Assembly: GCA_029934915.1 (NCBI GenBank)
Contig: JAOZLI010000011.1
Location: 1-21,499 of the forward strand
Length of the DNA: 21,499 bases
Direction: 5' to 3'
Source of the DNA: Desulfocapsa sp.
GTDB lineage: Bacteria; Desulfobacterota; Desulfobulbia; Desulfobulbales; Desulfocapsaceae
Below are positions 18,128-21,499 of this stretch, in pieces. The notes under the pieces were generated by a model. It made no database searches and had not been told where the DNA came from. It saw only the letters and a program-made list of their open reading frames with translations. The position numbers and the translations under genes were made by a program. Position 1 is the first letter of the stretch. Each line of letters starts with the position of its first letter.

Positions 18128-18141
18128 TTGATCTACGTCAA
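18128..18141. promoter_or_regulatory. HcpR/FNR-type activator box of hcp
   Basis: TTGATctacGTCAA matches the CRP/FNR-family pattern TTGAY-N4-RTCAA. Its centre (18134.5) lies 28.5 nt before the -10-like TATAGT at 18163-18168, so it sits near -41 of the predicted start, the class II activator position. HcpR is the known CRP/FNR-family regulator of hcp in deltaproteobacteria; its use here is inferred from motif, place and gene. Confidence 0.7.
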
Positions 18142-18162
18142 GGTTCTTTCTCCTGAAAAGGA

Positions 18163-18168
18163 TATAGT
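18163..18168 (+). promoter_or_regulatory. -10 element of the activator-dependent hcp promoter (P1)
   Basis: TATAGT, a 5/6 match to TATAAT with no -35 of its own because the HcpR-type box occupies that place. The expected start is about 18175, giving a leader of about 100 nt. Confidence 0.55.
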
Positions 18169-18190
18169 CAGCACATAATTTGCGGAAAGC

Positions 18191-18231
18191 AATGATTTTC
18201 ATTTGACAATCATTACTTTCAGCACGATACT
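18191..18231 (+). promoter_or_regulatory. Second hcp promoter (P2) overlapped by an inverted repeat
   Basis: A perfect -35 TTGACA (18203-18208) is 17 nt from GATACT (18226-18231), a 4/6 -10. The -35 lies inside an inverted repeat AATGATT (18191-18197) / AATCATT (18208-18214), which could be a repressor site. The core AATGATTTTCATT also resembles part of a Fur box. Both readings are motif-only. Confidence 0.4.
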
Positions 18232-18276
18232 TACGATAAGTTTTTTATACCCATTCATATAAACGGAGGATTGCCC

Positions 18277-19908
18277 ATGTATTGTAATCAATGTGAACAA
18301 ACTGCCAAAGGTGTAGCTTGTACCAAAATTGGCGTTTGCGGAAAAAATGAAGGTGTTGCCGGTCTCGAAGATCTGCTTACTCATGCTGTTCAAGGACTCT
18401 GCATTGTAGCAGAGGCAGGTCGCAAAGTTGGTGTTATTGATAATGCAGTTGATCATTTCACTGCAGAGGCTATTTTTGCCTGTCTGACAAATGTTGATTT
18501 TGACCCCAAACGTTTTGAAGACTGGATCCGTAAGGCTGTTACATTACGTGATGAGCTCAAAACAAAAGTTGAAGCAGCCGGTGGCAAGATCGAATCCACC
18601 GCAGCAGCCCTTACTTTTACTCCAGCTGATTCTACTTCAGGATTGGAAGAGCAGGGAGCAGCCCTTAATTTTATCACTACTCTTGATGCCAACGAAGATC
18701 TGCAATCACTGAAGCAAATCACCATGTATGGACTTCGTGGGCTCGCAGCATATGCTGACCACGCAGCTATTCTTGGTCAGGAAGATCCTGAAGTATATGC
18801 ATTTATCCATCATGCAATGGCAGCAATTACCACGGAAATGGAACTGAATGACCTGGTTGCTCTTTGTCTCAAAACCGGTGAAGTAAACATCCGTGCCATG
18901 GAACTTCTTGATGCAGGAAACACCGGAACCTATGGTCATCCTGTACCCACTTCTGTTCCTCTTGGCCACATCCCTGGAAAATGTATCCTTGTTACAGGAC
19001 ATGATCTGAAGGATCTAGATATGATCCTGCAGCAGACAGCAGGAAAAGATATTAATGTCTACACCCACGGTGAGATGCTGCCCTGTCATGGTTATCCAGA
19101 GCTGAAGAAACATAAACACTTTTATGGACACTTTGGGACTGCATGGCAGAATCAGCAGAAAGAGATGCCTGAATTTCCTGGTTCCATCATCTTTACCACC
19201 AACTGTATCCAAAAACCAAAGGACTCGTATAAAGATGCTGTCTTTACTACCGGTCTTGTGGGATGGCCGGATGTTGCCCATATTGGTGATGACAAAGATT
19301 TTGGTCCTGCCATTGAAAAAGCACTTGCCATGGACGGTTTCACCGATGAAGTGGACAATGGCTCTGTAATGGTTGGCTTTGCAAGAAATACCGTTCTTAG
19401 CGTTGCTGACAAAGTTATCGAAGGTGTGAAGTCAAAGGCAATTCGTCATTTCTTCCTCCTAGGTGGTTGTGATGGTGCCAAGCCCGGTCGTAATTACTAC
19501 ACCGAAATGGCAGAGCAGATCCCATCTGATTGTATGATCCTCACCCTAGCCTGCGGAAAATTCCGCTTCTTCGATAAGGATCTTGGTGATATTGGTGGTA
19601 TTCCACGTCTGCTTGACGTTGGACAGTGTAACGATGCCTACTCTGCAATTCAGATTGCAGTTGCTCTGGCCGGTGCATTTGAGTGCGGTGTGAATGATCT
19701 GCCACTCTCCTTTGTCCTTTCCTGGTACGAGCAAAAAGCAGTAGTTATTCTTCTTTCCCTGCTGCATCTCGGGATTACTGATATCCGTCTTGGACCCAGT
19801 CTGCCTGCATTCATTACACCAAACGTGTTGAATGTACTGGTAGAGAATTTTAACATTATGCCCACAGCAGAGACTGCTGCGGAAGACCTGAAAACCATCC
19901 TCGGATAA
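18277..19908 (+). CDS. hcp: Hybrid cluster protein (hydroxylamine/NO reductase)
   Basis: Cytoplasmic iron-sulfur-oxo protein that removes reactive nitrogen species; hydroxylamine reductase and NO reductase activities are known for the family. 543 aa. The N-terminal motif C-x2-C-x8-C-x5-C (Cys3, 6, 15, 21) is the strict-anaerobe [4Fe-4S] type, unlike the enterobacterial [2Fe-2S] type. All hybrid-cluster ligands are in place: His242, Glu266, Cys310, Cys398, Cys426, Cys451, Glu485, with Lys487. The ATG at 18277 has GGAGGA 6 nt upstream; an in-frame TTG at 18271 overlaps that region and is rejected. An HcpR-type box and two candidate promoters precede it, and a strong terminator follows. Confidence 0.98.
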   Translation: MYCNQCEQTAKGVACTKIGVCGKNEGVAGLEDLLTHAVQGLCIVAEAGRKVGVIDNAVDHFTAEAIFACLTNVDFDPKRFEDWIRKAVTLRDELKTKVEAAGGKIESTAAALTFTPADSTSGLEEQGAALNFITTLDANEDLQSLKQITMYGLRGLAAYADHAAILGQEDPEVYAFIHHAMAAITTEMELNDLVALCLKTGEVNIRAMELLDAGNTGTYGHPVPTSVPLGHIPGKCILVTGHDLKDLDMILQQTAGKDINVYTHGEMLPCHGYPELKKHKHFYGHFGTAWQNQQKEMPEFPGSIIFTTNCIQKPKDSYKDAVFTTGLVGWPDVAHIGDDKDFGPAIEKALAMDGFTDEVDNGSVMVGFARNTVLSVADKVIEGVKSKAIRHFFLLGGCDGAKPGRNYYTEMAEQIPSDCMILTLACGKFRFFDKDLGDIGGIPRLLDVGQCNDAYSAIQIAVALAGAFECGVNDLPLSFVLSWYEQKAVVILLSLLHLGITDIRLGPSLPAFITPNVLNVLVENFNIMPTAETAAEDLKTILG

Positions 19909-19938
19909 TTACGCAGTACAGCATTTTTTTCTCCTCCT

Positions 19939-19978
19939 GCAGGGTACGACGAGCATTTTTCGTACCCTGCTTTTTTTT
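19939..19978 (+). terminator. Rho-independent terminator of hcp
   Basis: Perfect 10-bp stem GCAGGGTACG (19939-19948) with CGTACCCTGC (19961-19970), a 12-nt loop and eight T. It lies 30 nt past the hcp stop and only 27 nt before the next gene's start. Confidence 0.92.
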
Positions 19979-20005
19979 GCCCGGGTTTTAAGAAATAATG
20001 ATCCA

Positions 20006-20653
20006 ATGAGTTACATTATGAACAATGAAAATATAAAACAAAATTTTTCCGTTATTCCAGGTCTCAATATGGGTCTTTTTTCACCAAAGGATCTTGCTGG
20101 TATTCTTGACATCATCAACAGATACGATGTTCCTGCCACTAAAATAACAGGGGCCCAACGCTTAGCGCTCCTTGGCGTGGAAAAGGAACAGATGAAAGCC
20201 ATACACGAAGAGCTGAAACCATTCATACGAGAATCTGTCCCAAACGGAGTGACTTACGTACAGGCCTGCCCCGGCCAGGAGTGGTGTAGATACGGCAAGG
20301 CAGACTCATTTGCCCTTGGTAAAAAATTAGAAAAATTAAGTTTTGATGAGCCATTTACAGCAAAGGTAAAAGTTGGTGTTTCAGCATGCCGTATGTGCTG
20401 TACCGAACCTTACCTGCGTGACGTTGGACTCTATGCCTCGAAAAGCGGATGGACTCTTGTTTTTGGTGGTAACGGTGGTGGACGCCCACGGATAGGTGAC
20501 GTGGTTGCTAAAAAGCTAAGTGACGATGAAGCTGTTGATCTTGCTCAAAAATGTCTTACTTTTTATCAAAAGGAGGCCAGACCGACATCACGATCTTCCA
20601 GATTTATGGAACGTATTGGAATAGAGGAATTAAAAAAGCACGTATTTGAATAA
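20006..20653 (+). CDS. Small nitrite/sulfite reductase-like sirohaem [4Fe-4S] protein
   Basis: 215 aa. It contains a ferredoxin-like half-domain and the sirohaem/[4Fe-4S] signature of nitrite and sulfite reductases: ACPGQEWC (Cys88-x5-Cys94) and SACRMCCTEPYLRDVG (Cys128-x3-Cys132). The length is close to the low-molecular-weight assimilatory-type sulfite reductase of Desulfovibrio vulgaris, so it likely reduces sulfite or nitrite by six electrons. Placement next to hcp favours a role with nitrite or hydroxylamine, which is inference. No Shine-Dalgarno precedes the ATG at 20006 or the in-frame ATG at 20018. The hcp terminator is immediately upstream. It is followed by the zinc-ribbon gene with no terminator between. 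Confidence 0.88.
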   Translation: MSYIMNNENIKQNFSVIPGLNMGLFSPKDLAGILDIINRYDVPATKITGAQRLALLGVEKEQMKAIHEELKPFIRESVPNGVTYVQACPGQEWCRYGKADSFALGKKLEKLSFDEPFTAKVKVGVSACRMCCTEPYLRDVGLYASKSGWTLVFGGNGGGRPRIGDVVAKKLSDDEAVDLAQKCLTFYQKEARPTSRSSRFMERIGIEELKKHVFE

Positions 20654-20705
20654 TCTCAAAGAAAAAGCCTATTAAAGCAACTGGTCCCTCAACAGGAGTC
20701 ACTTT

Positions 20706-21260
20706 ATGCAATGCCCAGGACAAGATAACAGATATTGGGATGGTGAGGCCGTTTTTGAATCCCCCTGCCCTCACTGCGGAAACGTTCTTGAATTTTTCAA
20801 AGATGACAGTCAACGAAGCTGCAAACAATGTGGAAATAAAGTTTTAAATCCACGTATGGATTTTGGTTGTGCTGCATATTGTTCTCATGCAGAACAATGT
20901 CTTGGCTCCATGCCCCCAGAACTTTTGGCGCAACAAAAAAACCTCTTTAAAGATAAACTCTCCATTGCGGTACGAAAGCATTTTGCCGGTAACGATTCAT
21001 TGTTCAAACTTGCCGCCAGCCGTACCGAATTTGCAGAAGAATTATGCAAAGAGGAACAGCGCGGTGATATGGCCGCTATAATTGCCGCAACGCTGATCAC
21101 TGGCTGTGAAAACCCCATGGAACTCCTTCGCAATCTCACCAATGACGAAAACATGCTGACAGCAGTGGATGCATTACTTTTGGGAAAGAATCCAGAATCA
21201 GACAAAGAGCGGGCATCTTCTGAGATTTACAATAAAGTTTTAAAAAAAGTAGATCCTTGA
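20706..21260 (+). CDS. Zinc-ribbon protein with degenerate HD-like C-terminus
   Basis: 184 aa. The N-terminus has a zinc-ribbon-like CPHCG (Cys21, 24) and CKQCG (Cys39, 42), followed by NPRMDFGCAAYCSHAEQCLG (Cys55, 59, 65), a possible second metal site. From memory, proteins with this MxCPGQD start in sulfate reducers continue into an HD phosphohydrolase domain. Here the equivalent stretch (about 85-135) keeps the helical pattern (AEELCKEEQRGDMAAIIAATL) but shows ITGCEN where an HD pair would be expected, and it ends early. It is therefore probably non-catalytic. AGGAG lies 7 nt before the ATG. The gene is 52 nt after the sirohaem protein gene, likely in one operon. Its stop codon overlaps the activator box of the next gene. 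Confidence 0.8.
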   Translation: MQCPGQDNRYWDGEAVFESPCPHCGNVLEFFKDDSQRSCKQCGNKVLNPRMDFGCAAYCSHAEQCLGSMPPELLAQQKNLFKDKLSIAVRKHFAGNDSLFKLAASRTEFAEELCKEEQRGDMAAIIAATLITGCENPMELLRNLTNDENMLTAVDALLLGKNPESDKERASSEIYNKVLKKVDP

Positions 21261-21270
21261 CTCAGATCAA
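21257..21270. promoter_or_regulatory. HcpR/FNR-type activator box before the FrdX-like gene
   Basis: TTGACtcagATCAA, the same TTGAY-N4-RTCAA pattern as before hcp. Its centre (21263.5) is 28.5 nt before TATTAT (21292-21297), exactly the hcp geometry. It begins on the last coding base before the TGA of the upstream gene, so it reads as the gene's own promoter embedded at an operon end. Confidence 0.7.
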
Positions 21271-21291
21271 AGACTTAGCATGACAATGTGA

Positions 21292-21297
21292 TATTAT
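21292..21297 (+). promoter_or_regulatory. -10 element of the FrdX-like gene promoter
   Basis: TATTAT, a 5/6 match to TATAAT, at class II distance from the activator box; no -35 of its own. The expected start near 21304 leaves a leader of about 54 nt. Confidence 0.5.
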
Positions 21298-21357: not shown

Positions 21358-21499
21358 ATGAAAATCATGCGTAAAATTATAGAAATAGATGAAGAACTCT
21401 GTAACGGCTGTGGAGAATGTGTAACCGATTGTGCGGAGGGTTCGTTACAGATCATTGACGGTAAAGCAAAACTTGTTTCAGATAATCTTTGTGACGGAC
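21358..21499 (+). CDS. frdX: FrdX-like iron-sulfur protein, N-terminal part only
   Basis: The frame runs off the window after 47 codons. It starts MKIMRKIIEIDEELCNGCGE and contains CNGCGECVTDC (C-x2-C-x2-C-x3-C, Cys15, 18, 21, 25) followed by AEG instead of the usual Pro, then LVSDNLCDG, where a second cluster motif should begin. This matches FrdX, the ferredoxin-like protein co-regulated with hcp by HcpR in Desulfovibrio and relatives, thought to pass electrons to Hcp. GAGG lies 8 nt before the ATG. The presence of the HcpR-type box supports the assignment. Confidence 0.8.
   Translation, partial: MKIMRKIIEIDEELCNGCGECVTDCAEGSLQIIDGKAKLVSDNLCDG

Follow-up and report, generated by a model that had tools for sequence, protein, structure and literature searches.

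A contig of a Desulfocapsa sp. genome, here called the window and analysed over its whole length (contig C45, 21499 bp; the genome is in 606 contigs and 83% complete), carries two short palindromes of the form TTGAY-N4-RTCAA, one ahead of the gene encoding the hybrid cluster protein Hcp and the other ahead of a gene for an FrdX-like ferredoxin. On the basis of sequence comparison, these boxes are very probably operators in an HcpR1 regulon like those known from delta-proteobacteria, each acting within a class II promoter. The conservation of the box, the -10 element and the spacing between them in relatives supports the suggestion, made in a preliminary description of this DNA, that these are HcpR-type boxes arranged for class II activation. 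What is new is an additional example of a known regulon, together with probable extra members and a second conserved promoter at hcp. A regulon predicted in 2004–2005 can thereby be followed into a genus that has received little study, where a specific protein is the candidate regulator; one promoter geometry is seen to span several phyla, and a cytochrome resembling hydroxylamine oxidoreductase (HAO) and resB can be named as probable co-targets.

The box at hcp, TTGATCTACGTCAA (also written TTGATctacGTCAA), occupies positions 18128..18141 and, like the other window features given below with their coordinates, lies on the + strand. It is followed by the -10 hexamer TATAGT (18163..18168), a 5/6 match belonging to a promoter designated P1, with a predicted start at ~18175 that places the box centre at about -40.5. 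The box at frdX, TTGACTCAGATCAA (also written TTGACtcagATCAA; 21257..21270), begins inside the 3' end of the gene before it and lies upstream of TATTAT (21292..21297), also a 5/6 match, with TG ahead of it as in an extended -10 and a predicted start at ~21304. A recount confirmed the letters and coordinates first reported for both boxes, as well as the distance of 28.5 nt from the box centre to the first base of the -10 in each case. The reported absence of a separate -35 also holds at hcp P1, where AAGGTT occupies the position 17 nt 5' of TATAGT. In class II promoters of the FNR and DNR type, a box centred near -41.5 stands in place of the -35. The promoters described here resemble these in having a box centre at about -41.5 (starts being predicted from the -10), no -35 and a conserved distance to the -10.

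The comparison at hcp covered up to 350 bp upstream of the gene in 106 loci, made up of 78 named GTDB loci and 28 whole-genome relatives, the window included. At least one locus is counted in both sets (L076 = L152), and loci with no start assigned (L097 and L123 of 80 named loci, L151 and L160 of 30 whole-genome loci) were left out beforehand. TTGA-N6-TCAA was found in 86 of the 106, comprising all 28 relatives and 58 of the 78 named loci. The 58 boxed named loci have a TAnnnT hexamer at +29.5 in 38 cases, with any other offset occurring at most four times; in the relatives it lies at +29.5 in 25 of the 28 promoters and at +28.5 in only three, those of the window, G014 and G034, the last from another family. 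When 16 genomes of the genus are aligned, TTGATcTAnGTCAAgG and the P1 -10 stand out as conserved islands; a stretch upstream is rich in A (65%, compared with 34% on the downstream side of the P1 -10).

An FrdX protein was found in 28 of the 30 loci collected for frdX, the remaining two (L189, L190) being left out for want of one. Within the window's own family (f1), the box is present in all 16 loci found, the window included, with TAnnnT at +28.5 in 15 and at +29.5 in one (G017); inspection by eye places TG plus one base ahead of the -10 in 14 of the 16. The usual spacing is 29.5 at hcp and 28.5 at frdX, which would put the box centres at about -41.5 and -40.5, respectively, if transcription starts 7 nt after the -10; either value is compatible with activation of the class II kind. 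The geometry initially described as identical at the two genes is so within the window (28.5 each) but not as a rule, relatives mostly having 29.5 at hcp and 28.5 at frdX. The distance from box to -10 thus seems to be conserved gene by gene, with a difference of 1 nt between genes.

In dinucleotide-shuffled versions of the window, TTGAYN4RTCAA is expected 0.222 times and at least two boxes occurred in 13 of 1000 shuffles. Two boxes with a common offset to a 5/6 -10 occurred in none of the 1000, bearing out the earlier argument that chance matches would hardly keep an exact shared spacing. The genome and its relatives were searched by pattern rather than by matrix, with a spacer of 21–22 nt in the box-plus-(-10) pattern. 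The bare exact pattern has 28 sites genome-wide against nine for a reversed control, whereas the box with TAnnnT at +28.5 or +29.5 has 139 sites against 30 control sites (36 genomes, both strands; a palindrome may count on both strands, in sites and control alike). The concern that the pattern might be common at random positions is justified for the bare pattern, which is unspecific, but not for the pattern in promoter context. The bare pattern is therefore weak evidence, and it is promoter context that decides.

The preliminary description had placed the activator, a CRP/FNR-family protein, elsewhere in the genome and proposed looking for an hcpR-like gene; such a gene was found on contig C37. 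Only two proteins in the assembly, encoded on C37 and C365, have a CRP-type helix-turn-helix (HTH). The C37 protein (G000:C37:1381-2040), encoded on a different contig from hcp, has 219 amino acids, no cysteine (Cys) and the helix TIPETLSR, which when aligned by eye gives Pro180-Glu181 in CRP numbering. In 27 of the 78 named loci a homologue (34–67% identity) is encoded upstream of hcp in divergent orientation, with a gap of <400 nt in 24. Among these 27 loci, a TTGA box is present at hcp in 26, and the Glu follows Pro in 22, Gln in three, Gly in one and Ser in one. The linkage seen in these other taxa marks the Cys-free C37 protein as a predicted HcpR1, and it is most likely the regulator. 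Orthologues were detected in 32 of 36 genomes and not in G016, G017, G019 or G028. Among PDB sequences the closest is DNR (3dkw, E 1.9e-32), a protein described as nitric oxide (NO)-responsive (PMC1274295). The C365 protein, whose helix reads VRVVVTR, was rejected as the regulator.

The combination of an FNR-like palindrome at hcp and frdX with a regulator that has a residue other than Arg at position 180, Glu181 and no FNR Cys motif is that of the HcpR1 regulon in Desulfotalea psychrophila and Desulfuromonas. According to the 2004 and 2005 descriptions, D. psychrophila has the same kind of box at both genes, for example tcTTGACtTAGGTCAAAg, TTGAY-N4-RTCAA goes with Pro/Ser180, Ser/Pro180 is tied to TTGA rather than TGTGA half-sites, and HcpR regulators of the TTGA type lack the FNR Cys motif (PMC545781, PMC1274295). 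Apart from the organism, the differences here are the 1-nt change in spacing between hcp and frdX, the second conserved hcp promoter, and the HAO-like cytochrome and resB as probable targets. Desulfovibrio HcpR has the same core targets, hcp and frdX, and its gene is linked to them, but it has a CRP-like half-site in TGTGA-N6-TCACA and Arg180 (PMC545781, PMC5701242). Activation of hcp-frdX and repression of sat and apsAB are predicted there, and hcpR linkage to hcp is described as frequent, not universal (PMC545781). The literature searched held nothing on HcpR with Desulfocapsa, nor on an HcpR regulon with multiheme.

How might the system work? NO or nitrite stress would switch on the HcpR1-type CRP/FNR regulator, a signal that we infer from the family. 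D. desulfuricans HcpR1 is reported to bind heme (PMC5701242), so that by family analogy NO might be sensed by heme here also. The regulator dimer would bind TTGAY-N4-RTCAA, centred ~40.5 nt before the start and by the missing -35, and would contact RNA polymerase in class II fashion to activate hcp and frdX separately. Hcp would then remove NO or hydroxylamine, with FrdX probably supplying the electrons.

A number of observations weigh against the HcpR1 reading or, in the case of the pattern counts, against the boxes being more than chance. The box was not found within 350 bp of hcp in 20 of the 78 named loci, nor within 320 bp of frdX in 12 of the 28 loci, all 12 being outside family f1. In eight of these 12, coordinates put the beginning of frdX 0.8–1.1 kb after hcp, making an operon likely there, in which the hcp promoter may be common to both genes. 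There is no sign of autoregulation: none of the 30 hcpR loci carries a box in the 350 bp ahead of the gene, this region being partly N in our own genome. G016 and G017 (95% and 88% complete) keep the boxes at hcp and frdX with no C37 orthologue detected. Eight of the 28 bare-pattern sites in the genome belong to an interspersed repeat, and 17 formally overlap open reading frames (ORFs) of at least 100 amino acids; two of the 17 (on C127 and C447) were judged to lie ahead of the real start, leaving 15 inside ORFs. A search that tolerates one mismatch finds no enrichment in the window (four seen, 5.08 expected). Lastly, hcp has a second promoter-like element, P2, that could drive the gene without HcpR.

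P2 is a sigma70-like element, TTGACA-N17-GATACT (18203..18231), with a 10/12 match and a predicted start at ~18238, and it coincides with a conserved block in the 16-genome alignment. The strict pattern fits 13 of the 16 genus genomes; in 15 a looser block, poor in G009 and G006, is found at a distance of 74–78 nt from the start of the box, and the sixteenth genome (G015) has P2 with a 16-nt spacer. Since the box-to-P2 distance varies in this way whereas that from box to P1 -10 hardly does, P2 would appear to be an independent basal promoter of hcp. Could it instead be the main one, with the upstream box acting from about -103.5, or P1 unused? The quality of the match and its conservation in the genus speak for this, as does the position of the box, -103.5 being a known class I position. 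The near-fixed distance from box to P1 -10, which extends even to distant taxa, and the lack of any P2-like block in the frdX alignment make it unlikely.

A second alternative is that the boxes serve a classical FNR that senses oxygen (sites TTGAT-N4-ATCAA), or another CRP/FNR protein, rather than HcpR. The box sequence is compatible with the FNR consensus (PMC1274295), a genome of this completeness could have lost an FNR gene from its assembly, and G016 and G017 keep their boxes with no C37 orthologue detected. However, neither of the two CRP-HTH proteins in the 83% complete assembly has an FNR-type Cys cluster; the candidate regulator is unlike FNR in being without the Fe–S cysteine set, and DNR for its part drives denitrification genes. 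Eleven further loci of the genus were read, yielding six CRP-type proteins, all with the helix SRQTVST and not PETLSR, three loci with none and two out of frame; one of the six (L359) shows four Cys upstream of the first Met, in a stretch that is probably untranslated. Moreover, the protein whose gene neighbours hcp in different phyla is of the HcpR1 type, and we regard an FNR-like regulator as very improbable. That the boxes are chance palindromes with no regulatory role, as the ORF, repeat and one-mismatch figures might be taken to imply, is extremely improbable, given the shuffling result, the conservation of the box across phyla and its excess over control in promoter context.

The interspersed repeat, source of the eight box-like matches, is intergenic and has TTGATTACCATCAA (one variant) at its start, then a CTCAGCTAARCTATRTTT stretch, then GAGCTCGCCCC. 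It was read at loci L006, L010, L011, L012, L013, L033, L040 and L042, corresponding to contigs C58, C272, C277, C284, C342, C436, C501 and C567. At another site, TTGATATACGTCAA stands with a perfect TATAAT at exactly +28.5, 5' of a DUF4326 + SLOG-family gene (G000:C127:5178-5218 = L009:1501-1541). As the contig seems mobile or foreign, judging by that gene, the site was set aside as a regulon member; it may be a promoter of the HcpR kind carried by a mobile element, or else a chance match.

Beyond the window, the HcpR1 regulon appears to be larger than first described: the membership of hcp and frdX stands, but a size of two genes probably does not, since a HAO-like multiheme cytochrome (C439) and resB (C447) have a similar promoter architecture and are probable further targets. 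Hydroxylamine oxidoreductases are relatives of the cytochrome, whose best match in the PDB is 6t5e (E 1.8e-23); the G013 protein has eight CxxCH motifs, and our own copy, cut by the contig, is 71% identical to it. Ahead of the genome's own genes, the -10 is TAATAT for the cytochrome and TAAGGT, a poor one, for resB. A box lies upstream of the cytochrome gene in 15 of 27 loci, nine of them with TAnnnT at +28.5 or +29.5, and upstream of resB in nine of 29, all nine with TAnnnT (L325 of 30 loci, with 42 nt upstream, was left out); both targets would accordingly be lineage-limited. A polyferredoxin-like protein, recognised by eye from its CGWICP motif, is a recurrent predicted target in four relatives. 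Cytochrome c and polyferredoxin genes are among the published Desulfuromonas HcpR targets (PMC545781), so that an extension of this sort is already known in kind. It is an evenly balanced proposition that the HcpR regulon of the genus is a two-compartment nitrosative-stress module, in which cytoplasmic Hcp and FrdX, the multiheme cytochrome of the HAO family and ResB, a factor in cytochrome c maturation, would share one regulator and a common class II box geometry with gene-specific usual spacing, hcp having in addition its regulator-independent basal P2.

The HAO-like cytochrome gene and a tatC-like gene have the palindromic box between them (L264, L265; L034:1031-1044). TAnnnT is present on both sides of it in G008 and on the tatC side only in G011, and this one box may serve divergent promoters.

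Within the window the order is a methyltransferase gene, the first box, hcp, a terminator-like hairpin, a small NirB-like gene, a gene for a 184-amino acid protein, the second box and frdX. The hcp gene (18277..19908, ATG at 18277) encodes a hybrid cluster protein/hydroxylamine reductase of 543 amino acids with a Prismane domain (PRK05290, 794.9 bits). Its product is 81–82% identical (best segment) to the nearest named records, which are metagenome-assembled genomes labelled Deltaproteobacteria, Desulfobulbaceae and Desulfocapsa sp. The hairpin 3' of hcp (19939..19978) resembles an intrinsic terminator, with an 11-bp outer stem followed by T8 (-20.2 kcal/mol, z -3.48); a separate terminator scan with a loop limit of 8 listed none. 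Of frdX only the 5' part is present (21358..21499, ATG at 21358), the contig end at 21499 cutting the gene. The hairpin, together with frdX having its own box, makes separate control of hcp and frdX in the window plausible. The NirB-like protein (20006..20653, 215 amino acids) has matches to NIR_SIR domains, and the 184-amino acid protein (20706..21260) has no NCBIfam or Pfam match. These NirB-like and orphan genes sit between the hcp hairpin and frdX, and the coordinates in a sister genome (G001) give a similar hcp-to-frdX distance.

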